DNA of 59,032 bases. It comes from a virus. The DNA is taken from the IMG/VR virus record IMGVR_UViG_3300025767_000019, positions 1-59,032 of that record. One strand, written 5' to 3'. The position numbers and the translations under genes were made by a program. The notes below the pieces were generated by a model. The model did no database searches. It was given only the letters and a program-made list of their open reading frames with translations, and was not told the origin of the DNA. Below, piece after piece: positions 14,321 through 56,164 of the stretch. Numbering within the stretch: the first letter of the stretch is position 1; each line of letters opens with the position of its first letter.

Positions 14321-14938
14321 ATGAAAATCGAATTAGGTCCGTATAAAAATTGGTTTGGTCCATATCAGTTGGCTGAGAAGATCCTTTTCTGGAAAGACAA
14401 GGATGATGATATCATTATGACCTTGGGTGATTTTATTGCTCATGGCAAATGGGTACCATATACATCGGACTCTGATATCTTTAAAAAAGATGAACGACCA
14501 GAGACTTGGTTGTATAAACTGATGCAATGGTGGCAAAAGACCAACACTCGCAAAGAAGTAATCCGCATCGATCCGTATGATACGTGGTCTATGGATACTA
14601 CACTAGCCAAGATAGTGCATCCAATGTTATTACAGTTAAAAGCAACGAAGCATGGATATCCTATTGAAATTGATGTTGAAGATGTGCCGGAAAATCTACG
14701 AGCAATTGATAGGTCTGATGACTATTCATATGATCAAATGGATTTATTTGATGCGGAATTGTGCAACCCTGAATATATCTCTATAGCATCTGATCGATGG
14801 GACTGGGTACTGGATGAAATGATCTATGCCTTTAGTATTCTCCGCGACGACGATAAGGTATGGATTGCTGACGATAATGAACGCGTCAATAATGGTTGTC
14901 GACTCTTTGGCAAGTATTACCGAGCATTGTGGGATTAG
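14321..14938 (+). CDS. conserved large-phage protein (GPY-NW-GPYQ...RIDPYDTWSMD family)
   Basis: 205 residues from ATG 14321. The signature IELGPYKNWFGPYQLAE at the N-terminus, VIRIDPYDTWSMDTTLAKIV in the middle, QLKATKHGYPIEIDVEDVPE and finally DRWDWVLDEMIYAF form a family found widely in large phages without known function. The conserved Asp, His and Trp residues look functional. The in-frame TTG at 14303 lies within the promoter and is rejected. The transcript may be leaderless, since no Shine-Dalgarno is seen. Confidence 0.75.
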   Translation: MKIELGPYKNWFGPYQLAEKILFWKDKDDDIIMTLGDFIAHGKWVPYTSDSDIFKKDERPETWLYKLMQWWQKTNTRKEVIRIDPYDTWSMDTTLAKIVHPMLLQLKATKHGYPIEIDVEDVPENLRAIDRSDDYSYDQMDLFDAELCNPEYISIASDRWDWVLDEMIYAFSILRDDDKVWIADDNERVNNGCRLFGKYYRALWD

Positions 14939-14940
14939 AC

Positions 14941-15171
14941 ATGAACATCAAACACTATCCAATTTTAGATACTGAGAAAGTAATTAAGCACTATGAAGAA
15001 AAAGACAACGTTGCTATCACGTATATCTGTACCACTGACCTTCGGGTTAGCGATCACCCTGTTGACATTTTCTTTAGGGAATCCCCTCATCCTGAGTTTG
15101 GCAATCGTTATTTTGGGATGTACGCTGATAATGGAAATCTAATTGGCGCAATGGAATGGCTTGCAGTATGA
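14941..15171 (+). CDS. small protein, unknown
   Basis: 76 residues from ATG 14941 (MNIKHYPILDTEKVIKHYEE), alpha/beta with a beta-rich C-terminal half (YFGMYADNGNLIGAMEWLAV). It follows the preceding stop directly and ends in an ATGA overlap with dCMP deaminase, so it is probably translated with its neighbours. The family looks like a common phage hypothetical; function unknown. Confidence 0.6.
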   Translation: MNIKHYPILDTEKVIKHYEEKDNVAITYICTTDLRVSDHPVDIFFRESPHPEFGNRYFGMYADNGNLIGAMEWLAV

Positions 15172-15656
15172 AACAAAAATGGATTGATGCGTTTATGGAC
15201 ACTGCTGAGCGGTTCGCTCAGTTGTCTACAGCAAAGCGATTGCAGGTAGGATCAGTTGTTGTCAAAGATAACCGAATTATAAGTATTGGATACAACGGCA
15301 CGCCGGCAGGTTGGGATAATACGTGCGAGTATAGCGAATTTGTGGGTAGCGACGAACAGATCCCATCGCCTGGCGAGATGAAACGACTTGGGTTTACCGG
15401 TACTGACCATGGTTGGTGGCGGACACATACAAAAGACGAGGTTATCCATGCGGAAGCTAATGCAATCTCTAAGTTGGCAAGATCGATCGAATCTGGTCTT
15501 GGCAGCACTATGTTTGTTACTCATGCTCCATGTATTGACTGCGCCAAGTTAATTTACGGTGCTGGAGTAGAAAAAGTTTATTACCGAGATACATATAGAG
15601 AGACGACGGGAGTTGACTTTCTGGCTAAGTGTGGAGTTACTGTAGAACAGGTTTAA
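15168..15656 (+). CDS. cd: deoxycytidylate (dCMP) deaminase
   Basis: 162 residues. The cytidine/deoxycytidylate deaminase zinc site is complete: HAEAN (H94, E96 as proton shuttle) and PCIDCA (C122, C125). Also typical are KRLQVGSVVVKDNRIISIGYNGTP and the insert with Cys53. The enzyme makes dUMP from dCMP for thymidylate synthesis; T4-like homologues are allosterically controlled by dCTP/dTTP. ATG 15168 overlaps the preceding stop; the in-frame ATG 15156 would need deeper overlap. The stop is 1 nt before the tRNA gene. Confidence 0.93.
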   Translation: MKQKWIDAFMDTAERFAQLSTAKRLQVGSVVVKDNRIISIGYNGTPAGWDNTCEYSEFVGSDEQIPSPGEMKRLGFTGTDHGWWRTHTKDEVIHAEANAISKLARSIESGLGSTMFVTHAPCIDCAKLIYGAGVEKVYYRDTYRETTGVDFLAKCGVTVEQV

Positions 15657-15657
15657 T

Positions 15658-15734
<77 letters not shown>

Positions 15735-15751
15735 TTAACATAAGGATAGGA

Positions 15752-16225
15752 ATGCATCGCATGAAACTAAGTAAAAATTTTAGCATGGCTGAGTTCACCA
15801 AGTCACAGACTGCTGAACGCAAGGGTATCGACAACGTCCCACAGGGTGAGCATTTGGAAGCTGCAAAGGCTCTATTTGAAAATGTCGTGCAGAAGGTACG
15901 TGACCATTTTGGCCCTACCACAATTAACAGTGGTTACCGTTGTCCAGAGTTGAACGAAGCGGTCGGTGGTTCCGCAACATCACAACATTGCCATGGCGAG
16001 GCGGCCGACATTGAGGTACCTGGGGTTGCGAACAGCGACCTTGCAAACTGGATTGTGGACAACACCGATTTTGATCAGGTCATCTTGGAGTTCTACACAC
16101 CCGGTATTCCAGATTCTGGTTGGGTTCATGTGTCATACAAGGCCGACGGTAGTAACCGTGGCAAGGCGCTGACGGCAACTCGTGTGGGTCGCAAGACAGT
16201 GTATTCTGTTGGTATCCACGCCTAG
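15752..16225 (+). CDS. M15-family peptidase, likely endolysin
   Basis: 157 residues. SGYRCPELNEAVGGSATSQH and HGEAADIEV show the VanY/M15_3-type fold, with zinc ligands H81, D87 and H126 (GWVHVSY), and an acid (E113) in the catalytic position. Such enzymes cut L-Ala-D-Glu or D-Ala cross-links in peptidoglycan and serve as phage endolysins. There is no signal peptide, so a holin is needed; none is obvious beside it. Start 15752 has AAGGA upstream; ATG 15761 (MKLSKNFSMAEF) fits the family start equally well. Confidence 0.82.
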   Translation: MHRMKLSKNFSMAEFTKSQTAERKGIDNVPQGEHLEAAKALFENVVQKVRDHFGPTTINSGYRCPELNEAVGGSATSQHCHGEAADIEVPGVANSDLANWIVDNTDFDQVILEFYTPGIPDSGWVHVSYKADGSNRGKALTATRVGRKTVYSVGIHA

Positions 16226-16229
16226 CATC

Positions 16230-16490
16230 ATGGCCGACTTATTTGATTTTGGTTTTACTGCTGTTGATGAAGAAGAGCTTGAAGTTGTTCAGAAGGCTCA
16301 CGAACAAGTTAGTCAAGAGTCCACTGCAGCCAAAACCATTCAAGAGCGTTTAGATGGTCTGTACAATGCAATCACACCCCTACTAAACAATTTAAAGCAA
16401 AATCCTGAGAAGGATTACATTCTGTGGCCCAATCGACTAGAAAAAGTCGAGCAGTTCGAAACCATGCTACAGAAAATATATAAAGGATAG
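16230..16490 (+). CDS. conserved T4-like phage protein (MADLFDFGFTAVDEEE...)
   Basis: 86 residues from ATG 16230. The start (LFDFGFTAVDEEEL) and the end (NPEKDYILWPNRLEKVEQF...KIYKG) define a small, coiled, acidic protein found again and again in marine T4-like phages, where the WPNR motif is the best conserved part. It looks like a structural chaperone or adaptor, but no function is known to me. Follows the M15 gene with a 4-nt gap. Confidence 0.65.
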   Translation: MADLFDFGFTAVDEEELEVVQKAHEQVSQESTAAKTIQERLDGLYNAITPLLNNLKQNPEKDYILWPNRLEKVEQFETMLQKIYKG

Positions 16491-16493
16491 TAT

Positions 16494-16733
16494 ATGTGGA
16501 CTGGTATTGTATTGTGGTGCGCGCTCAGCAACGGAGTTGTGAGTATATGTGAAGCTAAGGCCAACGAGTTGGAATTGTATCCAAGTGAAATGGCATGTTA
16601 TGAGGATATCAACGCATTGCTGCGACACCCTGAAATTGTAGAGCAGAGTCAACGATCAAACAATCCCATAGTTCTCAAAGAGGCCAATTGCGTAGAGTGG
16701 GACACCAAAATTGAACTGAAAAACTCTTTGTAA
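16494..16733 (+). CDS. small protein with possible signal peptide
   Basis: 79 residues. The N-terminus MWTGIVLWCALSNGVVSICEA is hydrophobic and could act as a signal sequence or anchor, followed by an acidic, Cys-containing domain (SEMACYEDI, EANCVEWD), where two cysteines could form a disulphide in the periplasm. Placed right after the endolysin candidate, so an envelope or lysis accessory role is possible but unproven. Last gene before the terminator. Confidence 0.5.
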   Translation: MWTGIVLWCALSNGVVSICEAKANELELYPSEMACYEDINALLRHPEIVEQSQRSNNPIVLKEANCVEWDTKIELKNSL

Positions 16734-16754
16734 TTGAACGACACTAATATATTC

Positions 16755-16786
16755 ACCCCGCCCGGGACACCCCGCGCGGGGTTTTT
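16755..16786 (+). terminator. intrinsic terminator
   Basis: GC-rich hairpin. Either ACCCCGC (16755-16761) with GCGGGGT (16776-16782), or the compact ACCCC-GCGC-GGGGT, followed by a T-run to 16786. It ends the dCMP deaminase-tRNA-lysis block; the next promoter begins at 16815. Confidence 0.88.
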
Positions 16787-16814
16787 ATATGCTTACAGTT
16801 TAGTCAGGTACTTG

Positions 16815-16843
16815 TTGACCTAAAACCCAATAGACCAGATAAT
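16815..16843 (+). promoter_or_regulatory. early sigma70 promoter, repeat-family copy 2
   Basis: TTGACC (16815-16820), 17-nt spacer, GATAAT (16838-16843), with the leader after it nearly identical to copy 1. The AAGGTTA element of the other copies is replaced by CAGGTA. Confidence 0.88.
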
Positions 16844-16876
16844 AGACTCATAGCAAACGAAAACAGGAGTTACATT

Positions 16877-17239
16877 ATGACAACATCACCATCATTCACC
16901 AAAGAGTACTCAGACTACTGTGACCGTAAGTTGAAGCACTATAACTTCTGGTTGATGGATATGGGCCGCGAACTAGGCACTCCATACCCTGGCTTCCCGG
17001 AGGACATTCCTGCGGGCAAGACGTCAAAGACCACTGTTGTAAATAAAATTGCTACTCGCACAGTCCGCGTTAGCACTAAAGGTGCTACTAAGGCCGACCG
17101 CGCAGTGGAAATCCTCCGCAGCAATTCCAAGCTCGCCCGGGTGAACTTGATTGCTCTGCTGGAACAGCAATTGGGAATGAGCAAGGCTGGTGCAACAACG
17201 TATTACTACAATGCAATGAAGAAACTGGGCTACGCTTGA
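16877..17239 (+). CDS. putative DNA-binding protein, GMSKAGATTYYYNA type
   Basis: 120 residues. A variable acidic N-terminus (FWLMDMGRELGTPYPGFPED) is followed by a basic linker and a helical C-terminal domain DRAVEILRSN...LEQQLGMSKAGATTYYYNAMKK. This domain, about 45 residues, is shared by several phage proteins and looks like a helix-turn-helix (MSKAGATTYYYNAMKK as recognition helix). First gene after early promoter copy 2; a regulator of early transcription is plausible. Confidence 0.6.
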   Translation: MTTSPSFTKEYSDYCDRKLKHYNFWLMDMGRELGTPYPGFPEDIPAGKTSKTTVVNKIATRTVRVSTKGATKADRAVEILRSNSKLARVNLIALLEQQLGMSKAGATTYYYNAMKKLGYA

Positions 17240-17265
17240 TAAATACCCATCGAGGAGAAACAAAA

Positions 17266-17487
17266 ATGGCAATTATAGAACGAATTAGTGTGGGTAAACG
17301 GATCGAGGGTCGATACCTGGGAAAGGTGGTCACTGGGACCATAACCGACTCGCGGGTCGTTTACGGAGGGGACATTAAGTATACCGTGTCCTTGGATACT
17401 CCCCTGCAGCGGGAAATCTTCCTGGGGGATCAAGAGATAGAAGTAGTAGGTATTCGCCAAGGCCGAATCAATAAAGTAATTGACTGA
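17266..17487 (+). CDS. small beta-rich protein
   Basis: 73 residues from ATG 17266, with GAGGAG upstream; the in-frame start at 17236 lies within the previous gene. Sequence MAIIERISVGKRIEGRYLGK followed by VTGTITDSRVVYGGDIKYTV has the alternation of a small barrel (SH3- or KOW-like). Unknown family. A GATAAATA string 21 nt upstream resembles a weak late promoter. Confidence 0.55.
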   Translation: MAIIERISVGKRIEGRYLGKVVTGTITDSRVVYGGDIKYTVSLDTPLQREIFLGDQEIEVVGIRQGRINKVID

Positions 17488-40792: not shown

Positions 40793-43700
40793 ATGGCCAC
40801 AAGTTTTACCAAATCGGTTTTTGCGTCTACATACAAAGACGATTATAGAGACAGCGACAACTATCACCGCATTCTTTTTAACAGTGGTAGATCTCTGCAA
40901 GCTCGCGAGCTTACACAGATGCAAACCATTACTCAGCGCGAGTTGACTAGATTGCTAACTCATTTATTTAAAGATGGATCCCCAGTTAATCCGGGTGGAC
41001 CTTCAATAAACAATGCATATGAGTTTATTAAGCTGAATACAACTGTTAACCTTTTTCCCACAGGGGACTCGTTATCAAATCTGCCAGGTACCACACTTAC
41101 TGCAACTAATGGTGTTAAGGTAAGGGTCCTACAAGCCGTTGCCGCAACCGCAACCGACCCAGCAACCCTATACGTAGAATATACTGATACGTCAGCAGGC
41201 ACCTCCGGAGCAAGTGCTATTCGGGTCACGCCTGGTACCACCCTTGGTGGCGGAGAGTATACTTTTACTGTTCAAACCACAAACACTACAACTAATCCGG
41301 CTGTTGGTGCCGGCACGCAATTCTCAGTCCATGGTGGGGATTTCTTTACCAAAGACCGCATTGTATTTGTTGGCCAGCAGTCTATTATCCTATCAAAGTA
41401 CTCTAGCACTCCTAGCGCTGTTGTGGGATTTAAGGTCACTGAAAGTATTGTGACTGTTGCTGATGATCCTAACCTATATGACAATCAAGGCGTTACATTA
41501 AATAGATCAGCTCCAGGGGCCGATAGATATAAGATTAAGTTAGACTTGACGACAGAAGATCAAATATTGTCCTCCGATAACTTTATGTATTTTGCTGAAG
41601 TAGAAGATGGCAAAATTATTACTCAGGTTGTAGCAGGAGAGAATTATAATGTTCTTGAGGATAGTTTAGCAACAAGGACAAGAGAAGAGTCTGGTGATTA
41701 CATTGTTAATCCCTTTACAGCTAAGTTTACAACTCAAGCGACCGACGCTACATCCGTAAATTTGAGTTTAAGTAACGGCACGGCATATGTTAACGGTTAT
41801 AGAGCAACAATTGATCGCCCCACATCATTTGCACTGTCTAAGCCCAGAACAATTCGCACACTGACAGATGAGGCAATTGGTATAACATTTGGCAACTACT
41901 TGGTTGTCAACAAAGATACAAATAAGGGTTTGCCCAACTTGTATCAGACAGTTACTTTTAAGGATAGTAGCAACTTTACCGGCAATACTATTGGTACAGG
42001 AGTCGTAAGCGCTGTTGATGAAAACATCGATGGAAACGTGCAAGTGTATTTTATTAACATTGTAATGCAGACGGGTACCAATAGAAGAAATATTGCATCG
42101 TTTGGTACTAGTGTTACTGACTATTGCAATCCTGTACGTGAGTTGGGAAAAACAGTATTCAAAAATATTGATCAACAAGTTTATGTTTACAGCCTTCCTT
42201 TGTTTAGACCTCAATCCGTAACCGGAGTTGATCTTGATTATCAACGCAGAGTAACAGCAACTGTTGATGCTAGCCAGCAAATTACGCTGAACCCTGGCCT
42301 GGACACCAATCCAGACACCAAGGAAGTATTTACAAATGTAAACGATTGGATCGTGACAGTAGCCACCGGCGCTGTTGACACATCATGGAGTGTTATATCG
42401 GGAGGGGCCGGACAAAATACTGCAGTGTTGCAGACAACGCTTGCCCAAGGAGTGCAAGTAGAGGTTTACACATTTGTTAACAAAGCAAATGCGGAATCCA
42501 AGTCAAAGACGTTGGTAGAAACCACCGACACCATTACACCGTCTGCAGATGGTACAATTGCACTAGGCAAGCCTGACATCTATCGAGTAACCCGGATTAC
42601 TCTAGCAGACTCTGATGGTGAAGATGTCTCTAACAGGTATACGGTTGATAATGGTCAAAGAGACACCCACTACGACCTGGGTAGCTTGAAGTTAAAGGCC
42701 GGCCAGTCTGTACCAGCTGGTGATGTATTTGTTCGGTATGAATATTTTAGTCATGGTGTTGGCGGGTGGTTCTTTGGAGTAAATTCTTACGGAGGACAGG
42801 TTGCGTATCAAGATATTCCTTCATATACACGTCAAACCGATGGTGCAATAGTCCAGCTCCGAGACAGCATTGACTTCCGACCTGTTGTTAACTCATCAGG
42901 CACTTTTGGATCTGGCGCTATTGTTTGGTATCAGCCGGCTAACACTAGTGTTGTACAAGCTACAGTAAATTATTACTTGGGCAAGTCTGTGCGTGTGATT
43001 ATCGATCAAGAAGGAGTAGCTCAAGCTATTGAAGGTGTTGCCGCGCTAACCCCTCAGCTCCCCCCAAAGCCCAACAAAGCACTGGATCTGTTTTATATCA
43101 ACATGAATCCTTATATGCTGAGCGACACTGATGTGGTTACAAGACCCATAAAGACAAAGCGATATACAATGAAGGACATTGATGATTTGGCGCAGCGTCT
43201 TGCAAATCTGGAAGAAGTCACCTCATTGTCATTATTGGAAACCACCACAGACAGTTTGTTCGTACTTGACTCTGACGGATTGCCTAGAAGCAAGTCAGGG
43301 TTCTTTGTAGACAACTTTGCTGATCACCTAAGATCTTTAGTTATCGCTCCAGATTACAGAGCTTCAATTGATCCTCAACAGCGGGTATTGAGACCCACTT
43401 TCCTGTCGGACAACATTAGATTGTTGTATGACAACGCCAATTCAGTTAATACTGTGTTGAGAGGTGACAACATTTACCTCAACTATACTCACACAAATCA
43501 TACCAATCAGAAATTGGCTACTGAGACAATGAACATTAACCCATTTGCGGTAGTTCGAAAAACAGGGATGATACAACTGTCTCCAGCTTCTGATTCGTGG
43601 GTGGAGACAGAGTATCAGCCAGAAAATATTATAGATGGTGGCAATCGAATTGTTAACAACTTTAATAACAACTGGTCAAATTGGATGTGGAACTGGTTTG

Positions 43701-45940
43701 GCTCGTCTCAGACTGCATTAGCTGAGCGTGCAATTAATTCTGCTCCTGGTAGTGCTGTGGGTCAAAGCAGCAGCGGCAATGGTGGAACTACTACTACTAC
43801 GGGCATGAACATGTTGATCACCACAACTCGATCAGCAGTTGCTAGAGTTGTTGCTGATGAGACAATCCGCACTTTTGTTGAGGACCGTCTACTCGATACC
43901 AAGTTGTTGCCATTCATGCGGTCTAGAAAGATTTATTTCCGCGCATATGGCATGAGACCTAATACCCGAGTGTTTGCATTCTTCAACAACGTCCCAGTTG
44001 CGAACTTTGTTAGATCTGAGCCGTTCACATTTATGAGTGGTGACCCCGTTGATCCTGGTAACACCAATAATAACGCGACCGCCCATCCAGATGGAGCTAC
44101 GACGCTTCAGTCAGATGCTACCGGTACAGTTACCGGATCATTTGTTATCCCATCCACTGGCTCGTTGAAATTTAGAACTGGTAGTCTACAATTTAAGTTG
44201 TTGGACATCAGCGTTCCCAATGACGCCGATGCGTTGTCATCGGCACGTGCAACGTTTACCTCAACTGGCATATTAGAAATTCGGCAGCAGTCGTGGCTTT
44301 CTACTAGACAGATAACAATCGGGGGTACAGACACCTCCACTACACGCGTTACGGCATTTCAAGCCGAGGGAGGTGGCGACCCACTGGCTCAAACATTTGT
44401 AGTCGAGACGGGCGAAGGCATTTTTGTCACAAAGATTGGTATTAAGTTTGCCACTGCAAGCGCTACAGTTCCAGTAATATGTCAACTCCGTGCAACTGTT
44501 AACGGTGTGCCTTCTGCAAGCGCTATCCTGGCAACCAAGGCTCTTGGAGGGGCTACGGTTCAAGCAGATATTGATGCAACACCGGCAACTCCTACCGTAG
44601 ACACCTTGGTCACCACATACTTTGAATTTGACGAGCCAGTGTATCTAAGCGGAGGAGTTGAATATGCTATTGTATTGTTGACAGACTCCGTAGATTATAA
44701 CGTATATGTTGCTCAGACGGAACAATTCTTGCTCAACTCAACAGAGCTGAGAGTATCCCGTCAACCCACATTAGGTTCACTGTTTAAATCTCAAAACTCT
44801 AGAGTGTGGGAGCCGGATCAAACCCGCGACTTGACTTTTGAAATCGAAAAGGCGGTATTTAGTACAGCTGGTGGTACAGCAAGACTTGTTAACGCAGACT
44901 TGCCGTCTCATTTATTGTCCGCCGGTAGCTTATCAACTGCTGTGGGCGATTCAGATGTAACAGTTCAAATTCCCAATCATGGCATGACAGTATCGGACGA
45001 AGTTTTGATTGCTGGCACACCAGGTACAGTTGGAGGTGTTGATTCATCTGCTATTGTAGGTTTGCGGACCGTTACTGCTATAGATGGCTTTGGATTCAAG
45101 TTCCAATCAGATTCAGCTGCGACTGCTGCGACTATTGGCGGTGGTAGTATTATTGTTGAAAAGCAAATGATGTATGACATTGGTGTCCCATCCATACAAA
45201 CAATGATTCCAGATCGGACTTCTGTTCAGTATTCTCATAGAACTACTTCGGGTAGATCTTTAGCTAGTGGTACAGCTTATCAACATGATATTGGGTTCTC
45301 ATCACTGTCAAACAACGAGGAAAACTATTACGTATCTCCTAGATTGATTGCTACAAGTCGAAACGAGACTCGATCTCTTGACGGAGAAAAATCATTACAG
45401 ATTAATGGTGAGTTGACAACAACTTCTGCTAATGTGTCTCCTGTAATTGATTTACAGCGTGCCACATTTACAACTATTAATAACCTTATTGATAATCCCC
45501 AATCCCTTGATTCAGATAAGTCTGGGTTTAATAAAGGATTGACATACATTTCCGAAACAGTACCATCTGGTGGCACATCGTTGGCGAAGCATATTACTCA
45601 GCCAGTGGGATTAGCTCAGAATGCTGTGGGATTAAAAATCTTTATGGCTGTTAATAGACCGTCCGGATCAAATGTTGATATGTATTACAGAACTGATCAG
45701 AGTGATGACTCAGCTGATGGTACTTTACTCACGTCAGACTGGTCGCTCGTTGCTCCTGTGAGTTCTATTAAGATTGATGACAATCCTACCATCTTTAGAG
45801 AGTACGAGTATCTCGTAGGTGGCAATACAGGCACGATGACTCCATTTGATCAATATCAAATTAAAATTGTTATGAGATCTACTAACTCCTCTAAGGTGCC
45901 TGTTATCAGGGATTTAAGAACTATTGCCATGGCCACATAA
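40793..45940 (+). CDS. giant baseplate/fibre protein (DUF4815 type, gp10-like place)
   Basis: 1715 residues, the longest gene in the window. DUF4815 N-terminus: FTKSVFASTYKDDYRDSDNYHRILFNSGRSLQARELTQMQTI, FKDGSPVNPG, DRIVFVGQQSIIL and CNPVRELGKTVF. Centre: a coiled segment (DDLAQRLANLEEVTSLSLLE) and FLSDNIRLLYDNANSVNTVLRG; end: beta domains (ARVVADETIRTFVEDRLLDTKLLPFMRSRKIYFRAYGMRPNTRVFAFFNNVPV; FLLNSTELRVSRQPTLGSLFKSQNS). In related phages this family is a virion protein at the gp10 position, holding the long-fibre attachment. SD GAGTAGAAAAG is weak. Confidence 0.78.
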   Translation: MATSFTKSVFASTYKDDYRDSDNYHRILFNSGRSLQARELTQMQTITQRELTRLLTHLFKDGSPVNPGGPSINNAYEFIKLNTTVNLFPTGDSLSNLPGTTLTATNGVKVRVLQAVAATATDPATLYVEYTDTSAGTSGASAIRVTPGTTLGGGEYTFTVQTTNTTTNPAVGAGTQFSVHGGDFFTKDRIVFVGQQSIILSKYSSTPSAVVGFKVTESIVTVADDPNLYDNQGVTLNRSAPGADRYKIKLDLTTEDQILSSDNFMYFAEVEDGKIITQVVAGENYNVLEDSLATRTREESGDYIVNPFTAKFTTQATDATSVNLSLSNGTAYVNGYRATIDRPTSFALSKPRTIRTLTDEAIGITFGNYLVVNKDTNKGLPNLYQTVTFKDSSNFTGNTIGTGVVSAVDENIDGNVQVYFINIVMQTGTNRRNIASFGTSVTDYCNPVRELGKTVFKNIDQQVYVYSLPLFRPQSVTGVDLDYQRRVTATVDASQQITLNPGLDTNPDTKEVFTNVNDWIVTVATGAVDTSWSVISGGAGQNTAVLQTTLAQGVQVEVYTFVNKANAESKSKTLVETTDTITPSADGTIALGKPDIYRVTRITLADSDGEDVSNRYTVDNGQRDTHYDLGSLKLKAGQSVPAGDVFVRYEYFSHGVGGWFFGVNSYGGQVAYQDIPSYTRQTDGAIVQLRDSIDFRPVVNSSGTFGSGAIVWYQPANTSVVQATVNYYLGKSVRVIIDQEGVAQAIEGVAALTPQLPPKPNKALDLFYINMNPYMLSDTDVVTRPIKTKRYTMKDIDDLAQRLANLEEVTSLSLLETTTDSLFVLDSDGLPRSKSGFFVDNFADHLRSLVIAPDYRASIDPQQRVLRPTFLSDNIRLLYDNANSVNTVLRGDNIYLNYTHTNHTNQKLATETMNINPFAVVRKTGMIQLSPASDSWVETEYQPENIIDGGNRIVNNFNNNWSNWMWNWFGSSQTALAERAINSAPGSAVGQSSSGNGGTTTTTGMNMLITTTRSAVARVVADETIRTFVEDRLLDTKLLPFMRSRKIYFRAYGMRPNTRVFAFFNNVPVANFVRSEPFTFMSGDPVDPGNTNNNATAHPDGATTLQSDATGTVTGSFVIPSTGSLKFRTGSLQFKLLDISVPNDADALSSARATFTSTGILEIRQQSWLSTRQITIGGTDTSTTRVTAFQAEGGGDPLAQTFVVETGEGIFVTKIGIKFATASATVPVICQLRATVNGVPSASAILATKALGGATVQADIDATPATPTVDTLVTTYFEFDEPVYLSGGVEYAIVLLTDSVDYNVYVAQTEQFLLNSTELRVSRQPTLGSLFKSQNSRVWEPDQTRDLTFEIEKAVFSTAGGTARLVNADLPSHLLSAGSLSTAVGDSDVTVQIPNHGMTVSDEVLIAGTPGTVGGVDSSAIVGLRTVTAIDGFGFKFQSDSAATAATIGGGSIIVEKQMMYDIGVPSIQTMIPDRTSVQYSHRTTSGRSLASGTAYQHDIGFSSLSNNEENYYVSPRLIATSRNETRSLDGEKSLQINGELTTTSANVSPVIDLQRATFTTINNLIDNPQSLDSDKSGFNKGLTYISETVPSGGTSLAKHITQPVGLAQNAVGLKIFMAVNRPSGSNVDMYYRTDQSDDSADGTLLTSDWSLVAPVSSIKIDDNPTIFREYEYLVGGNTGTMTPFDQYQIKIVMRSTNSSKVPVIRDLRTIAMAT

Positions 45941-49126: not shown

Positions 49127-50983
49127 ATGACAATACGTTACCCACAAAAGTATACTACTCTATCGCGAGCTATTCGATCGGAAATAACAACATACACCTT
49201 TTCTGGTGTAAAAAGCGGAGTTACATTAACACAAATTAAGCTATTGCGGTTGACACCAGCACAAGCTGTTGATTCATGGAGCAATGGAGAAATAAATAAA
49301 AGTATTGGGGGTAGTAGCTATACTACTACAATGAATGCTAGAATGTCCACAGAGGCTAATGCTCGTGTGTGGTCTATTAATATGGACACCACCGTCAATG
49401 GTACTAGCAATGGATGGATATTCGTAAAAACATCTGATAACCAAGGGAACGAATTAGTAAACGGTTGGGAGTTGTGGTGGCCCAAAGAATCGGCCACCCA
49501 CAGCTACTATGACTTAAACGCCGCGTCGGCCGCCAATGCAGCGCTGGCGTTTGATAGATGGCCAGGTAACTTTACGGTAGTGGAGAATGATGATATTCTA
49601 TCTCCTCTTGTTGCTATACAAGACTTTCAAGAGACTGGCGAAGACAACAGAAAATATCAAGTGTATGCATTATATGATGCCTGGTTAAAGAGCCGTGGTA
49701 GCGACCCACTTGACGGTGAAAAAAATACAATTTCTGGAGTAGAGCTTGTTGTTCATCCGGTACGACACACCTTCTATACTGATAACCAAGGCGGTAACGC
49801 CGATCTCTTTATGGAACTAGGATACCGTTCCGACGAAACGAAGGAAGCCGCTGTGCTATCGGGTCCCGTAAATACTGATTTTACTCTTGGACTGGCATAC
49901 GCTTTAATTGGTCTCCAAACCAATTCATGGAGCCGAAGTATGAAAACTAGAGTGCTGGGCTCCCGCGAAATATATTATTTAAAATTGGGGTATCAGTGGG
50001 GAGTTATTAACGATCCAACGGACGCCCGCACAAACCAATTTATGTTGAAAGACAATAGGGTTATAGCTGGAGAACAACGGATAAGTGCCACAGATTATAT
50101 ATTTCCAGCCACATCTAGTGAGTATAATCTCACCACTCAATTCAATTTCAGAGCAACTCTTGATCAGTGGATTGACAGATCATATCGCGATAGATCGGTC
50201 ACGGGGAGTAGTCTGATGCCGGCCGATAATTTAATTCCGTTGTACTGGGACGGAACATCTCTTAAAAGGATGTCGTACGCTGACATTGTAGACACTTTTA
50301 TTGTTCCGACGTTGCAAACAATGAAGGGTGATGGTTTTGCAGATCAGACAGAAGATTTTAAACCATACACTGTTAGTACTTCAACATCAATTTCAAACTA
50401 TTATCCTGGTAAACCAATTTATTTTGATTCACGTATTGATAAAGACCAATATCAGTTTACTCTATCCCCAGACCAATACAAAGGAAACGACTTTGGTTAT
50501 TTACTAACGGTTGGGGCTGAAGAAACAAGAGATCAGCCAATCACAATAACTACCTATAGATTATTTACTAAAAACAACTGTAGAGCGGCAACAACCCAAT
50601 CTTCTAATTCTGTTGAATATATGGCGTTTGATGCCACGTCTAATAGTATTGTGGGTGTAACAAACAGTCAGCTAGCAACAGCACTTCTTCCTTTACTTAA
50701 TTTTCATATGTGTAGCGATGGTGCATATTCAATTAGATACAGTATGACAAATTCCGCAATTGCTAACTCCGAACCTGATACATCGTTGTATAATTCATCC
50801 ATCTCGTTGGGGTCTGTAATGCAAGACACATCATTTAATGAAGATACAGCAGGATTGGTTATTGGTTATTATGGAGGTACAGATGACTATAGAACCCAAG
50901 TCATGCCTGTAGCAGCAAACCAAACTGCTAGCAATACCACCAATACCATTCGCTTAAAAATGTATACCGTCTCAACCCCTTGA
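49127..50983 (+). CDS. fibre/virion structural protein, unknown
   Basis: 618 residues. MTIRYPQKYTTLSRAIRSEI at the start, then mixed alpha/beta: NGWELWWPKESATHSYYDLN, ADLFMELGYRSDETKEAAVL, YLKLGYQWGVINDPTDARTN, LIPLYWDGTSLKRMSYADIV; the last 150 residues resemble a Ser/Thr/Asn-rich beta domain (ISNYYPGKPIYFDSRI; FNEDTAGLVIGYYGGTDDYR). A plausible receptor-binding or distal fibre part after the shaft gene. No similarity I can name. SD AAGGAT before ATG 49127. Confidence 0.6.
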   Translation: MTIRYPQKYTTLSRAIRSEITTYTFSGVKSGVTLTQIKLLRLTPAQAVDSWSNGEINKSIGGSSYTTTMNARMSTEANARVWSINMDTTVNGTSNGWIFVKTSDNQGNELVNGWELWWPKESATHSYYDLNAASAANAALAFDRWPGNFTVVENDDILSPLVAIQDFQETGEDNRKYQVYALYDAWLKSRGSDPLDGEKNTISGVELVVHPVRHTFYTDNQGGNADLFMELGYRSDETKEAAVLSGPVNTDFTLGLAYALIGLQTNSWSRSMKTRVLGSREIYYLKLGYQWGVINDPTDARTNQFMLKDNRVIAGEQRISATDYIFPATSSEYNLTTQFNFRATLDQWIDRSYRDRSVTGSSLMPADNLIPLYWDGTSLKRMSYADIVDTFIVPTLQTMKGDGFADQTEDFKPYTVSTSTSISNYYPGKPIYFDSRIDKDQYQFTLSPDQYKGNDFGYLLTVGAEETRDQPITITTYRLFTKNNCRAATTQSSNSVEYMAFDATSNSIVGVTNSQLATALLPLLNFHMCSDGAYSIRYSMTNSAIANSEPDTSLYNSSISLGSVMQDTSFNEDTAGLVIGYYGGTDDYRTQVMPVAANQTASNTTNTIRLKMYTVSTP

Positions 50984-51003
50984 TTGTAATTATTGGAATA
51001 AAA

Positions 51004-51498
51004 ATGTTAGATACAAAAGATAAAGTAGTCAGCGCAATTTTTGGTAATACGGAACAAACAATGATCCGTGCTACAATTCAAAAGAGCAAAACAAAAGAAA
51101 TTCATGAAGTCAATGTTACCAGTATTGACGGGGACCCCTTTTTGTGGAATCAAATTATTTCCCAAGTACCGCTAGAAAGTATTGCGGAACAAACAAGAGA
51201 TTTCCAAGCGGGGCAGCGAAGAGCGCTTGCCGATACCCTAATAAATTATGCTAAGAAAAATAACTTAGTGTATGATCCCAGTACGTGGAGTCCCAATACC
51301 AAGTTATCTATTGATAACATCTTCGTTTTGCCTGAGGGCGACGTGGGATCAGATTTCTTATTTGAATTGAAACTAAGAGTATTTGATATGCCAAAAATTG
51401 CTGCCTCAAGTGATCAGGCAGTTAAGGTAGCAATTCGCGAAGCAGAGTCACCCATCGAAGTATTCTATCACGCCGGCAAGATTCTATTTAACAAATAA
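51004..51498 (+). CDS. protein downstream of fibre gene (possible chaperone), unknown
   Basis: 164 residues from ATG 51004, with GGA 6 nt upstream; an in-frame TTG start at 50980 overlapping the previous stop is possible. Helical and acidic, e.g. EQTRDFQAGQRRALADTLINYAKKNNLVYDPSTW and the end FYHAGKILFNK. Located directly after the likely receptor-binding protein, the usual place of a fibre assembly chaperone; sequence alone does not show it. It overlaps the convergent gene by 15 nt. Confidence 0.55.
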   Translation: MLDTKDKVVSAIFGNTEQTMIRATIQKSKTKEIHEVNVTSIDGDPFLWNQIISQVPLESIAEQTRDFQAGQRRALADTLINYAKKNNLVYDPSTWSPNTKLSIDNIFVLPEGDVGSDFLFELKLRVFDMPKIAASSDQAVKVAIREAESPIEVFYHAGKILFNK

Positions 51499-52185
51499 AT
51501 TATAATCGGCCCACTTGTGGGGATGATTGGCCATGTGAGTAAAGTGAACAAACTTTATCGATGGCCAGAACTCTCCTCCCAAGTATGCATATGGGTTACC
51601 AGTCACTTGTTTGAATCTAGTGTTCAATTTGGATACACTGGTTGTAAACTCTGGACCCTGTCTAGCTTCCATACGACAGAACCATTCTTTGGGGAGTGTG
51701 ATCAATTCCAACTGTTCCTTAACAGTATCATTGATAAAATGCTGCTCGCCGTTCACAGGACCAGATGTGAATCCTTCTTTAATATAAATTGTTTGCCAGT
51801 GTTCTGGATCCGACATGAATTTATCAAAGATATATCTACAATCCTTGGGATAATATTTGTAGAACCCTCCGTTGATGGTGAATCGGGTTTCTAAGTCCTC
51901 AAACCCCCAACGCCACCAACCAGGTGCTGCTAAAAATTGGCCTCGTTCAATGGGATAGTCGAATATCTTTTTATAGTCCCCCAACAACAGCACGTCAATA
52001 TCCATTACGCATACTGGTTCGTCCTGATCCAAAGTCATACCGATCATTTTGTTCCACTGTAGCTTGACTCTGGGGTCAAATGCTTCACGAATCCAAACAA
52101 ATTCGTACTCTGGTAACTTAGACTCGAGATACGTCTCATACTCCGGACCGTATCGATCACCAATTCTAACTGCTATGATTTTCAT
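51484..52185 (-). CDS. GT-A glycosyltransferase-like protein
   Basis: 233 residues. MKIIAVRIGDRYGPEYETYL and the DxD in EPVCVMDIDVLLLGDY (D62/D64), FTINGGFYKYYP and C-terminal KFVHFTHMANHPHKW with His residues. N-terminus aligns with the gene at 54719 (M-I--V--GD-Y--EY---L), so the two are paralogues. Last gene of the minus-strand cassette; its end overlaps the plus-strand gene at 51004. Substrates unknown; a virion protein or fibre acceptor is suggested by location. Confidence 0.72.
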   Translation of the reverse strand: MKIIAVRIGDRYGPEYETYLESKLPEYEFVWIREAFDPRVKLQWNKMIGMTLDQDEPVCVMDIDVLLLGDYKKIFDYPIERGQFLAAPGWWRWGFEDLETRFTINGGFYKYYPKDCRYIFDKFMSDPEHWQTIYIKEGFTSGPVNGEQHFINDTVKEQLELITLPKEWFCRMEARQGPEFTTSVSKLNTRFKQVTGNPYAYLGGEFWPSIKFVHFTHMANHPHKWADYNLFVK

Positions 52186-53488
52186 ATAGTATATTCAATC
52201 TAAAGGGGGTCTGTCCAATTACCGTTGTGTTGGGTAAATCCAAAAGCTGGTTGAACTGCTCATTCATGTGTTCCAATGAGTACTTATGATATGAAAAGAT
52301 ATAAGAGAATATATTAGTCAAGTAGATCAAGTTAGACTTCGAAGGGTTAACTTCGAGTGTTTGAGTGAAGTAATCAAATTGCTTTATCTCAACATCCTTT
52401 ATCTGCTGCATAGCAGCAATCCAATCATGATCGGAAAAGATATCATCATTCTCTTCAATAAAACCAGATGGTTTATATGACGCGTCGTCAATTCGACTAT
52501 TGTATACTTTAGCTACAATCTTTGTAATTCGCTCAATATCATTAACGGTTTTGGCGCCGTACAAATTAAATAGCCCATCTTTCCACTTTAGAGACGGTTC
52601 GTGGTTGTCCACTATTACTAGTTTGCTATTCTCGTGACCAAACCGTTTCCACAAATACTCTGCAACATTACCAGCGGCGGGTGCGTAGATAACATCATAC
52701 TTTCTCGACAGCGGAATCTTATCAATCTGTGATAACTTCGATGTGTTACGTCTGTAAATAATATTGGGCGATTTTTGCTGATCGGCAACTAACGGGGCAC
52801 TCAACTCTTCACGTTGAGGATACGTAAAGTATTTGGAGCTACGTTCCGGTGATGTGAAGTTTGTTATTGTATCACCTCCTGCTACCACCTTGCTAATATA
52901 TTCAGCCATTTCAGCATTTTTAACTTCACGTGTTTCAGTACCTGGTTGTAGCCACGTCGGAGTATAGTCGTCGTGAATATTATCTTGTGACACTTTGGGT
53001 ATTGTCGCGATACCACTCCATTTGCCAAATGTGGGTCGATCAATATCGCGCCAGTGTCGAAGATTTAAAAACATTGATTGTAGGTGCATCCTACCATATT
53101 GCTTATCCGGGTGCCACAAAATATGACCACGGCACGGACTATCGTTACGCTCAATCCACTTGTCTAGGTAGTGGTAAATGCTGTATTCAGAAGAACTAGC
53201 AGGAAAACGATATACCGTTCCAACATAGGATACCAGAGCGTAATCATACTCGTCAGCAAGAGTTGCACCCTCGTCTAACGTCTTTGCAAAAATAACATTA
53301 TGTTCGTCATTACCACCTCTAGACCACCCAATGCCTGTCATCCAGGTCAAAGTCATTAAGTATTTTTTAAAGTCACCCCACTCGAGTTGTGGGTAGTCGA
53401 CAATGATGTGAACTTGATTACGCTTATTAATTTTATTATGGCCCGCGTGGTCCAAAATATACTTTGCGTACTCCTCAAATGACTGCAT
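52166..53488 (-). CDS. unknown cassette protein, 440 residues
   Basis: 440 residues (MQSFEEYAKYILDHAGHNKI). N-terminal part has HIIVDYPQLEWGDFKKYLMT, EYDYALVSYVGTVYRFPASS, GHILWHPDKQYGRMHLQSMFLNLRHW; C-terminal half has KYDVIYAPAAGNVAEYLWKR and KLVIVDNHEPSLKWKDGLFNLYGAK, which could form a Rossmann-like binding unit. The N-terminal part and the VxPKV-type segment resemble 'rhamnosyl/glycosyl' accessory proteins only weakly; I assign no family. Starts in overlap with the oxygenase gene, ends in overlap with the glycosyltransferase. Confidence 0.55.
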   Translation of the reverse strand: MQSFEEYAKYILDHAGHNKINKRNQVHIIVDYPQLEWGDFKKYLMTLTWMTGIGWSRGGNDEHNVIFAKTLDEGATLADEYDYALVSYVGTVYRFPASSSEYSIYHYLDKWIERNDSPCRGHILWHPDKQYGRMHLQSMFLNLRHWRDIDRPTFGKWSGIATIPKVSQDNIHDDYTPTWLQPGTETREVKNAEMAEYISKVVAGGDTITNFTSPERSSKYFTYPQREELSAPLVADQQKSPNIIYRRNTSKLSQIDKIPLSRKYDVIYAPAAGNVAEYLWKRFGHENSKLVIVDNHEPSLKWKDGLFNLYGAKTVNDIERITKIVAKVYNSRIDDASYKPSGFIEENDDIFSDHDWIAAMQQIKDVEIKQFDYFTQTLEVNPSKSNLIYLTNIFSYIFSYHKYSLEHMNEQFNQLLDLPNTTVIGQTPFRLNILYENHSS

Positions 53489-54137
53489 CTGGGTATTCTT
53501 TCTTAAATGATCTAATAAACAACTTCAACCGTTCTTCGTTGGATCCCCCATGAACAATAAAGTGGATCCTTGGTTGTTTCGAAAAGTTGGCTGCCTCGTG
53601 AAACGGCCCGTTGTTAAACCAGTACACCTCAAGAGGAGAAAACGGTACTTCTAGCTTATCTTCGACCCTTCGAAGGTAGCAGTTGTCTGGTTGTGTAATG
53701 CAAATGTTTATCGCTGACATAATATCATCTTTTAACGGCATACCTTCTTTCCATTGATGAGTATCGGTATGAGACCTAATGAACCCACCAGACTCTAATA
53801 ACATAAAACGAGCTCTGCCATACTTCCCATTATTAGGAAAGTCTTCTCTCAACCAACGAGTCATTTCAGGTGCGAGATCAGCCAGCTTAGTCCATTTATA
53901 AAAATCTTTAGCAGTGGGATTGTAATGTGTAATATTCCAATCCTCACCATGCAGAGTAGCAGAGGACCAACCCCTCCCGTGGGATTCTCGGTGGGCCGTA
54001 AACAGTCCTTGATTATAAATTGTTTTTGCTTCATCAACAACAGCCTCCGGGATTGTAATATCTGCTTTGAGGTAGAAGACTTTATTGTCTCTACACCACT
54101 GTTTAATTTTTTCTACTTCATCCAAACATTGCATCAT
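53475..54137 (-). CDS. 2-oxoglutarate/Fe(II) oxygenase, Asp/Asn beta-hydroxylase type
   Basis: 220 residues. RSHTDTHQW (H123, D125) is the facial-triad HxD, H180 in FNNGPFHEAANF is the distal His, and R190 in KQPRIHFIVHGG the 2-oxoglutarate-binding Arg, as in aspartyl/asparaginyl hydroxylases (PF05118). FMLLESGGFIRSHTD is the strand before the triad. Such enzymes hydroxylate Asp, Asn or Pro in proteins. In a cassette with glycosyltransferases under a late promoter, it would create or prime hydroxylated residues on virion proteins for glycosylation; inference. Confidence 0.82.
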   Translation of the reverse strand: MMQCLDEVEKIKQWCRDNKVFYLKADITIPEAVVDEAKTIYNQGLFTAHRESHGRGWSSATLHGEDWNITHYNPTAKDFYKWTKLADLAPEMTRWLREDFPNNGKYGRARFMLLESGGFIRSHTDTHQWKEGMPLKDDIMSAINICITQPDNCYLRRVEDKLEVPFSPLEVYWFNNGPFHEAANFSKQPRIHFIVHGGSNEERLKLFIRSFKKEYPDAVI

Positions 54138-54669
54138 ATGTACTGTGAGTTATTTTATCAACTGTTAATAATGAGAGATCACCTCTATAGAATATACGCC
54201 GCCACGAATCTTTAGAAGTCTTTGGAGAGGCAACGCAGTAATAGTAATTAGGATCTTCTGTGTATCCAAAGCTAGTATACCAACGCGACACTAGTTTTGT
54301 ACGTCGATGCCAGTTTGCGGTTATTATAGATAACTTATAATCTGTGTGATTGTCAATCAAATCGCATATAGCGTATTTAAAACCTTCTCGTCTGTGCTCA
54401 GTGGGCGCGATGGACAAGTTATTTCGAAACACTTGAGATATGTATAGATCACTAACCCTACACACCCTAGGGTCGTACAACCCTCCATTTACAAATGTTG
54501 CGGACGCTCCTGGAACTCCGTTGTAATATACTAATAAGAAGTAATCGCGATTGTGCAAATCTTTGGGTTGTACGCCCTCTTGCTGAGCTTGTTCAACAAA
54601 GCTATTGTATTCGTCAAATGGCTCGGTGCTCAGTATATGTTTAAAGCAACTAAATGTTTCTATTATCAT
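54118..54669 (-). CDS. GNAT-like acetyltransferase-type protein
   Basis: 183 residues. HNRDYFLLVYYNGVPGASATFVNGG resembles the beta2-beta4 part of a GNAT domain, RVSDLYISQVFRNNLSIAPTEHRREGFKYAICDLI the helix-loop region, and ANWHRRTKLVSRWYTSFGYTED the C-terminal 'GF' helix-strand of GNATs. The acetyl-CoA pyrophosphate loop (Q/RxxGxG/A) is not plain, hence moderate confidence. Start overlaps no neighbour; 20-nt overlap with the oxygenase gene at its end. Would modify an amino or hydroxyl group of the cassette's substrate. Confidence 0.5.
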   Translation of the reverse strand: MIIETFSCFKHILSTEPFDEYNSFVEQAQQEGVQPKDLHNRDYFLLVYYNGVPGASATFVNGGLYDPRVCRVSDLYISQVFRNNLSIAPTEHRREGFKYAICDLIDNHTDYKLSIITANWHRRTKLVSRWYTSFGYTEDPNYYYCVASPKTSKDSWRRIFYRGDLSLLTVDKITHSTYDAMFG

Positions 54670-54718
54670 GTATATCCCTGCCTAACCGGCGGTATGGTAT
54701 TATACCATTAAAACTCAA

Positions 54719-55384
54719 TTAAGTCCAGTATTTTTTTACCCAAGGTTGTGCCAAACAAATGTCGGCACCCTCATTAAATAAACAGACTTCGTACGCCGGT
54801 CTGTGTAATCCGATCTGACTGTCGGTTTTGTAGTGCGTACCTTTGTTATACGAGTAAGCGATATTGATTGGTAAGGTTTCGAGTTCCAACTGCTCGTTGT
54901 ACAGGAACCTGTCCACACCTTTGTATTTGAATAGACTGTCGATTTTTTTTCGTTGGAAGAGTTCATACGCTGGTAATCCTTGGTTATCTTTCCACATCAT
55001 AATTGAAGAGTTGTACACTGTCGGATATCGATCATCCGAACAGGGCTGATACATTCCGTCTTTCCAAGCTGTATATAATACAGACAACTTGGAGGGGGTA
55101 TGATTCATTAACTTACTTAGCGGATTGATAATAACAATATCAAGATCAAAAAGTATATTAGTTCCGTGGCCATTAAATTTTCCCAATAGGTCTATCTTGA
55201 GCCACCACTTTTCGAGATCGGACTCAATGGGAATAACTTTAACCTCTTCACGAATCTCTGATGGATCCTCTGTATAGCAATAGAAGTCAAAATCGCGTGG
55301 TAGATTTCGCTTGACCATACTATAGAGTTTGTTAACATATTCAGCAGAGTACTTATCACCCCACTTCACACATAATATATTCAT
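54719..55384 (-). CDS. GT-A glycosyltransferase
   Basis: 221 residues. MNILCVKWGDKYSAEYVNKLYSM with DFYCYTEDPS, then TNILFDLDIVIINPLS (DLD, D80/D82), YNSSIMMWKD and the final DICLAQPWVKKYW. The 'KWGDKYSAEYV' start and DLD motif are typical of a glycosyltransferase family widespread in marine phages and bacteria. It is a paralogue of the gene at 51484. A hairpin ATGGTA-TAA-TACCAT (54691-54711, approximately) in the 49-nt gap after its stop could be a weak transcript end. Confidence 0.76.
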   Translation of the reverse strand: MNILCVKWGDKYSAEYVNKLYSMVKRNLPRDFDFYCYTEDPSEIREEVKVIPIESDLEKWWLKIDLLGKFNGHGTNILFDLDIVIINPLSKLMNHTPSKLSVLYTAWKDGMYQPCSDDRYPTVYNSSIMMWKDNQGLPAYELFQRKKIDSLFKYKGVDRFLYNEQLELETLPINIAYSYNKGTHYKTDSQIGLHRPAYEVCLFNEGADICLAQPWVKKYWT

Positions 55385-55390
55385 TGTATT

Positions 55391-56098
55391 TTAATTGTAT
55401 CCCATCTTTTGTGACAGTTGATCCAAATCAGCAGAGGTCAAATCTTTGAAAGGAAAGTACAACAAGGAGTAGAATCTGTCTGGTGTAAGACCGTTACCCA
55501 GATCCGGAAATGATGCAATGTCGGCGCGAGGAGAACCATCCGCAGTGTTAATTTGTTCTTGGGTAACATTCCCAGAATTCAGTAACTTATTAACAACATG
55601 ATCTGGATTAGATCTCAAGTATTCAGCAATTGTTACCCCGTTTTCTGAAGCTGTGTGACGCAACTTCCACATGTAATACATGTCCTGGAGGTGTGGAGCA
55701 ACCACTACTACCTCATTAGCCAATTGCTCAAAGCTACGGCCAGTGTGTTTTGACAGAGCTTGAGCTTCTAAAAGATACAGGTTAAAGTTTGAAGAAGATT
55801 TGCGCGCTGGGGGAAGACTCGATTTATTAATAAATATCTTTTGACAGTGGTATTTTTCTAACTCATTGTATGCGTTATTAACTAAATCCTCATATCTAAC
55901 TGGCAGCTCATCATTGTTGGCAAATATTTCATTGAACCCCACAAGACAAAGAACTATAGTATTATTTACGCCGTAATAATCAATACAGATATCCAACAAC
56001 AATTTAGAAGACTCATCTTCTGTATATGAGACAACCACCTTTTGACCAGCACTCAGTTGTGGTAAATTATCAAATGTGTTCCACGTTTCTAAAGACAT
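55391..56098 (-). CDS. unknown; possible degenerate PP-loop protein
   Basis: 235 residues. KVVVSYTEDESSKLLLDICI near the N-terminus looks like a PP-loop (SGGxDS) of N-type ATP pyrophosphatases in place but not in sequence (SYTEDESS), followed by a strand NNTIVLCLVGFNEIF as in that fold. Later KHTGRSFEQLANEVVVVAPH is helical. If it is an ATP pyrophosphatase relative, the nucleotide-binding serine-glycine pair is lost. First gene of the cassette, 29 nt from the inverted-repeat late promoter (56127). Function not known. Confidence 0.5.
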   Translation of the reverse strand: MSLETWNTFDNLPQLSAGQKVVVSYTEDESSKLLLDICIDYYGVNNTIVLCLVGFNEIFANNDELPVRYEDLVNNAYNELEKYHCQKIFINKSSLPPARKSSSNFNLYLLEAQALSKHTGRSFEQLANEVVVVAPHLQDMYYMWKLRHTASENGVTIAEYLRSNPDHVVNKLLNSGNVTQEQINTADGSPRADIASFPDLGNGLTPDRFYSLLYFPFKDLTSADLDQLSQKMGYN

Positions 56099-56126: not shown

Positions 56127-56134
56127 TATTTATA
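56127..56134 (-). promoter_or_regulatory. late promoter TATAAATA (minus) of the modification cassette
   Basis: Perfect late consensus reading leftwards, expected start about 56121, 23 nt before the ATG of the first cassette gene. It is one arm of the inverted repeat 56127-56164. Confidence 0.82.
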
Positions 56135-56156: not shown

Positions 56157-56164
56157 TATAAATA
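56157..56164 (+). promoter_or_regulatory. late promoter TATAAATA (plus)
   Basis: Perfect late consensus reading rightwards, right arm of the inverted repeat, 33 nt before ATG 56198. Confidence 0.82.

Follow-up and report, generated by a model that had tools for sequence, protein, structure and literature searches.

The 'host recognition cluster' (HRC) of pelagimyophages and cyanomyophages lies after VrlC and before gp14, and its glycosyltransferases, mainly of the GT8 type, have been read as modifiers of host lipopolysaccharide (LPS) (PMC7029224). Here we analyse a cassette of six genes found in what appears to be this same location, where fibre genes are mixed with GT8-type glycosyltransferases, in the IMG/VR record IMGVR_UViG_3300025767_000019, a 59,032-base fragment of an uncultivated, marine T4-like myovirus (the whole stretch is called the window hereafter). 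The cassette encodes, among others, two glycosyltransferases (GTa and GTb), an Fe(II)/2-oxoglutarate (2OG) oxygenase of the Asp/Asn beta-hydroxylase family PF05118 (OX) and a two-domain protein (U440), and it adjoins the genes of a fibre-like protein, c1, and of its partner, P50. Our results suggest a late cassette whose most likely role is to decorate a protein of the phage virion. The HRC also carries radical SAM cassettes, but the main text describing it is devoid of oxygenases, except for one 2OGFeDO note, and does not describe an OX-U440-GTb unit linked to c1-P50 (PMC7029224).

Several described phages carry comparable loci. In the cultured Pelagibacter phage Mosig EXVC030M, the cassette following the fibres (MT647606.1, 61.5-71.3 kb) resembles that of the window, with c1, P50, a GTa-like and a GTb-like gene, and an orientation convergent to P50. 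However, it has neither OX nor U440, and radical SAM/MoaA-like, aminotransferase, carbamoyltransferase, methyltransferase and nitroreductase genes are found instead. Twelve genes make up this equivalent cassette (61562-71305, locus L015). Mosig also has PF05118 matches outside of the GTa/GTb cassette, at 54737-55036, 60391-60711 and 92436-92708, of which two are above the curated cut-off and the one at 60391-60711 is below it. In phage HTVC008M (NC_020484.1 56402-59681, locus L018), a minus-strand oxygenase operon likewise converges on the last of the fibre genes, but it consists of four oxygenases annotated as other 2OG/phytanoyl-CoA types and a ferrochelatase-annotated gene, and it has no glycosyltransferase.

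Asparaginyl beta-hydroxylases of the cyanophages P-HM1 and P-HM2 (T4-GC 536 and 546) were reported in 2010, in a study that also described numerous 2OG oxygenases among marine T4-like phages, with proposed roles in nitrogen status or DNA repair (PMC3037559). Like OX, these hydroxylases are PF05118 proteins of T4-like marine phages; our tblastn search with OX did not detect them, and the T4-GC 536 gene of P-HM2 (TlmH, with a PF05118 match) is located near mazG and cytidyltransferase genes, away from the fibre region. Finally, the collagen systems (LH3, COLGALT1, and mimivirus L230 and its relatives) share with the pathway proposed for the window the logic of a fibrous protein that is hydroxylated and then glycosylated, and the use of GT-A glycosyltransferases. 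They differ by their oxygenase family, and the window enzymes are separate polypeptides beside fibres without collagen repeats, so that the likeness is one of logic only. The region, its glycosyltransferases and the phage Asp/Asn-hydroxylases are therefore already known, and the 'new system' put forward in the original prediction, an earlier reading of the window sequence, is only partly true: what we did not find described in the open-access literature is the OX-U440-GTb module tied to c1-P50.

Layout, late promoters and conservation

The existence of the six-gene cassette is practically certain. Its open reading frames (ORFs) have exactly the coordinates first given for them, from 51484 to 56098 on the minus strand, convergent to the fibre run, and its flanks show tail and fibre PHROG matches and homology to Mosig VrlC. 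The cassette and its promoter region comprise:

51484-52185, minus strand: GTb, DxD glycosyltransferase with a predicted GT-A fold, homologous to GTa (AlphaFold2 (AF2), Foldseek, invariant DxD, hhalign)
52166-53488, minus strand: U440, two-domain protein, predicted GT-A-like N half without DxD and Rossmann methyltransferase-like C half (AF2 model, weak PDB fold matches)
53475-54137, minus strand: OX, Fe(II)/2OG oxygenase of family PF05118 (Pfam, invariant HxD/H/R, AspH similarity)
54118-54669, minus strand: 183-aa protein of family c23, in sister cassettes fused to a C-terminal methyltransferase
54719-55384, minus strand: GTa, DxD glycosyltransferase (PHROG 1962, glycosyltransferase, 1.2e-10; D80xD82 invariant in 11 relatives)
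55391-56098, minus strand: diverged ATP-pyrophosphatase-like (QueC-like) relative (hhalign 96.2%, E 2.5e-9, to family c14 of sister cassettes)
56127-56134, minus strand: putative late promoter motif of the cassette, TATAAATA (exact match, 28 bases before the first gene; also precedes the cassette of the nearest relative, L002)
56157-56164, plus strand: divergent putative late promoter motif for the fibre genes that follow (exact match)

Overlaps of 14-20 nt join the GTb, U440, OX and 183-aa genes, and the remaining neighbours are 6-49 nt apart, so the cassette has the appearance of one operon. The 99-bp divergent gap upstream of it contains both exact T4-type late promoter motifs, pointing apart. 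Six of the eight exact motifs of the window have an ORF start 8-80 nt downstream of them, for 0.3 expected at random positions, which argues that this motif is very probably a working late promoter of the window phage. The late promoter first proposed for the cassette is thus retained.

The gene neighbourhood gives a second line of evidence. A search of viral contigs with three baits (OX, P50 and GTb) gave a table of 73 non-redundant IMG/VR loci, in which OX, U440, GTb, GTa and P50 were scored by profiles and the other genes, obtained with a simple ORF caller, were clustered by BLAST. U440 lies at most three genes after OX in 26 of 27 loci, and GTb at most five genes after OX in 25 of 27. Since the loci recovered with OX alone as bait contain the same gene set, the OX-U440-GTb linkage is more than a bait effect. 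On the fibre side, P50 comes immediately after c1 in 44 of the 47 loci. OX, U440 and GTb form a close-knit unit, tied to c1-P50.

The cassette adjoins P50 in two arrangements, either convergent, as in the window, or co-directional. In the second, P50 is followed by GTa, a methyltransferase-like gene, OX, U440 and GTb, and then by gp13/gp14-type genes, and the cassette is part of a late virion operon whose genes all share one strand, no gap exceeding 26-48 nt in four such loci. The internal order is identical in both orientations; the block has therefore been inverted as a whole, while staying at P50. A virion-type gene is found within 6 kb in all 67 GTb loci, c1 and P50, which have no PHROG match, being counted as virion-type by context. 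Furthermore, the dN/dS of OX and GTb is about 0.05-0.09, similar to that of the gp13-like neck gene, as calculated from the closer pairs (between the window and L002 it was mostly incalculable, synonymous sites being saturated). Purifying selection acts on both enzymes as strongly as on the neck gene. Taken with the promoter, this context makes it very likely that the cassette is late and linked to the virion genes.

Other cassettes occupy the same site, some of them without OX, with radical SAM, further oxygenase, carbamoyltransferase, nitroreductase-like and methyltransferase genes. In locus L125, two adjoining genes (14562-17267) downstream of gp13/gp14-like genes look, by eye, like asparagine synthetases. 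In one lineage (L013, 5445-6008), GTb is followed by what appears by eye to be a desaturase-like membrane protein, and some cassettes may on this basis act on lipids too.

The predicted enzymes

The claim of two paralogous DxD glycosyltransferases holds. GTa is recognized by its PHROG match, the only glycosyltransferase match of this kind for the pair, and neither GTa nor GTb matches a Pfam glycosyltransferase family; GTb matches nothing at all in Pfam or PHROG. Plain BLASTP between the two is marginal (E 0.003), and their homology comes from profile-profile comparison, with probabilities of 94% and 97.5% (hhalign, 97.5%). In GTb, D62xD64 is invariant in 12 relatives. Its AF2 model (pLDDT 86) matches the GT-A enzymes UGGT, GlyE, glycogenin and LgtC with a Foldseek probability of 1.00; LARGE1, as well as GT8/GT6 enzymes other than LgtC, are also among its fold neighbours. 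As modelled, GTb has the GT-A fold with the DxD metal motif of GT8-like enzymes, and the DxD is also found in GTa. Searches of PDB sequences with the GTa, GTb and U440 profiles gave nothing meaningful. When the whole cassette was compared by blastn, and OX, U440 and GTb in their window and L125 versions by tblastn, to 50,697 named phages, GTb had one weak match, in Mosig, and OX and U440 had none; a GTb search of 84,980 genomes yielded one 10.7-kb contig of a marine metagenome-assembled genome.

OX was rightly seen as an Asp/Asn hydroxylase-type 2OG oxygenase with a full HxD..H..R. It matches Asp_Arg_Hydrox (PF05118) at 9e-8 and 32.6 bits, for a curated cut-off of 22.6, as do eight of eight close relatives and one distant relative. 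Its residues H123-x-D125, H180 and R190 do not vary among 23 sequences, of which the most distant have 23% identity. Among solved structures, its profile comes closest to human AspH (E 0.0017), followed by L-proline cis-4-hydroxylase (E 0.12). Human AspH aligns as HxG where OX has HxD, hence OX is the triad form. PF05118 also includes lipid A and ornithine-lipid hydroxylases (LpxO, OlsC) and hydroxylases of free amino acids, and this breadth means that the family name leaves the substrate of OX unfixed. Weak NCBIfam OlsC/LpxO matches were obtained for 3 of the 23 OX relatives. In the distant OX paralogues of G005, G007 and G015 (loci L095, L103 and L111), the profile match spans one in-frame TAA, which may be a start-site effect or a broken or recoded frame.

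Both genes first listed as unknowns can now be assigned by homology. The U440 model (pLDDT 84.8) has weak, fold-level PDB matches, from which its GT-A-like and methyltransferase-like halves are predicted. Among viral models, its full-length matches are first uncharacterised phage proteins, then viral glycosyltransferases and glycosyltransferase-plus-methyltransferase proteins. An LH3/COLGALT1-like identity was rejected (rmsd 12-17 Å, TM about 0.2), and only 'GT-A-like' is retained. In L002 (10611-12994), U440 is present as a tandem duplicate of 449 and 349 aa. The second gene, at 55391-56098, is the diverged relative of family c14, itself weakly QueC-like. The GNAT identity proposed for the gene at 54118-54669 was not borne out, as we found no Pfam, PHROG or PADLOC match for it, and its profile did not match c13, a GNAT-looking family of sister cassettes. 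This 183-aa protein is instead the equivalent of the N-terminal half of larger proteins which, in sister cassettes, run on into a methyltransferase.

Averaged over 19 residues, Kyte-Doolittle hydropathy peaks at 1.42 among the cassette proteins, which is below the level of a transmembrane segment. A PADLOC scan for anti-phage defence found no match.

Candidate targets and competing explanations

The fibre-side genes concerned, together with the left border of the region, are:

49127-50983, plus strand: c1, fibre-like protein and first candidate target, directly preceding P50 (invariant motifs; Mosig homologue Mosig_00097)
50980-51498, plus strand: P50, 172-aa partner of c1, convergent neighbour and conserved border of the cassette (Mosig homologue Mosig_00095)
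40793-45940, plus strand: homologue of VrlC, the left border gene of the HRC (1715 aa; E 3.5e-170 to Mosig VrlC; region as defined in PMC7029224)

The window ends before gp13/gp14, which in relatives come directly after the cassette. It encodes a baseplate hub, a tail tube, gp25-, gp6- and gp8-type baseplate genes and a DNA-end protector, and its gp6 is closest to that of Phage C48C1 (41%), then to those of Pelagibacter phage HTVC008M and cyanophages. Downstream of the cassette, plus-strand proteins of 117 and 285 aa have PHROG matches to L-shaped tail-fibre assembly and to the baseplate wedge-tail fibre connector. As for c1, it is a fast-evolving protein with short motifs that are invariant or nearly so, among them MxxxDxxDTF and DYRxQxxP; the L125 copy is 48% identical to its Mosig homologue. 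The window copy has 618 aa, compared to about 318 in most relatives, with the additional sequence in the N-terminal half.

Modification of a virion protein is the best explanation for the late motif, the position in a virion operon, the c1-P50 linkage, the purifying selection and the soluble enzymes taken together, and we give it a probability of roughly 0.45. GTa and GTb would transfer sugars from nucleotide sugars, in a metal-dependent manner through their DxD, onto a fibre or adhesin-type protein of the same late region, c1 and P50, or another fibre, being the first candidates. Within the same decoration, OX would hydroxylate a side chain, or else some small building block, and U440 may add a further group or sugar. 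The enzymes of sister cassettes (methyltransferases, radical SAM, carbamoyltransferase, ATP-pyrophosphatase-like) could alter the final decoration, so that receptor binding or fibre protection would vary. The fold neighbours of GTb include glycosyltransferases acting on proteins or glycoproteins (UGGT, GlyE, glycogenin, LARGE1), and AspH is the nearest solved relative of OX, both of which favour a protein target.

Several observations weigh against it. The exact late motif precedes only 2 of 20 convergent cassettes, start codons in these relatives being those of the simple ORF caller, and we therefore do not claim its conservation as general. GT8-like folds and PF05118 serve LPS and lipids too. 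Between the window and L002, c1 is 29% and P50 37% identical, for 73% in OX and 81% in GTb; sequence change is thus much more rapid in the fibre proteins than in the enzymes, and a shared target would need a conserved motif. The conserved Asp residues of c1 were considered as OX targets and rejected, as they are equally conserved in loci without OX. The window fibre proteins contain neither an AspH-type EGF motif nor collagen repeats, and we found no target residue. Of the late fibre-protein modification originally predicted, the late timing and the tie to virion genes are upheld, but the fibre as the target and a single substrate for hydroxylation and glycosylation remain proposals.

A more specific version is that OX hydroxylates a conserved side chain in an adhesin of the virion and that this hydroxyl is the sugar attachment point, with GTa and GTb building the sugar and U440 and the exchangeable neighbours decorating it. 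We regard this version as improbable. If true, such a hydroxylation-primed pathway would be the bacterial-virus counterpart of collagen-type modification, tuning host recognition.

Among the alternatives, the glycosyltransferases, perhaps with OX as a lipid or aminoacyl hydroxylase, could alter the LPS or envelope glycan of the host, thereby blocking superinfection or keeping progeny from sticking to debris. This is the published interpretation of the GT8-dominated glycosyltransferases of the same pelagimyophage region (PMC7029224), and LgtC and other GT8/GT6 enzymes among the GTb neighbours, the presence of LpxO and OlsC in PF05118 with their weak matches among OX relatives, and the radical SAM, carbamoyltransferase and sugar-aminotransferase-like genes of sister cassettes, which suit glycan decoration generally, all agree with it. 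However, the timing appears late rather than early, the cassette is within a virion operon in one lineage, its six genes include no flippase or membrane protein, and the link to c1-P50 is fixed; we hold host-surface modification to be a serious but rather unlikely explanation.

Alternatively, OX might hydroxylate a free amino acid or peptide, the glycosyltransferases and their partners building a secreted or intracellular metabolite in an auxiliary pathway. The free amino-acid hydroxylases of PF05118, with L-proline cis-4-hydroxylase as the second solved match, and the mixed enzymes of sister cassettes, which recall natural-product clusters, point this way. But we saw no carrier, precursor peptide or exporter in the window cassette, and its strict association with the fibre region and late genes makes such tailoring quite improbable. 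It is still harder to see OX as one of the marine-phage 2OG oxygenases acting on 2OG levels, nitrogen status, oxidative metabolism or DNA repair, with the glycosyltransferases as unrelated passengers. A proposal of this kind exists for cyanophage 2OG oxygenases (PMC3037559), and HTVC008M has its four other 2OG oxygenases at the equivalent place. Nevertheless, that proposal concerning 2OG levels covers other oxygenase families, and the near-constant OX-U440-GTb linkage, overlapping genes and co-conservation speak against passengers. Lastly, DNA hypermodification by oxidation and glycosylation can practically be dismissed: an oxygenase paired with a glycosyltransferase also fits the logic of some DNA modifications, but T4 DNA glucosyltransferases have the GT-B fold whereas GTb models as GT-A, the timing appears late, and OX belongs to PF05118, not to TET/JBP.

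Possible consequences for host recognition

Decoration of the virion is an alternative that can be tested against the published 'host LPS modification' (PMC7029224), and the cultured phage Mosig, which has c1, P50 and both glycosyltransferases, is a starting point. If true, marine T4-like viruses would modify their own host-recognition apparatus post-translationally, with an exchangeable set of enzymes. This would account for the accumulation of glycosyltransferases, oxygenases and radical SAM enzymes beside fibre genes, and it would change the prediction of host range from fibre sequence.

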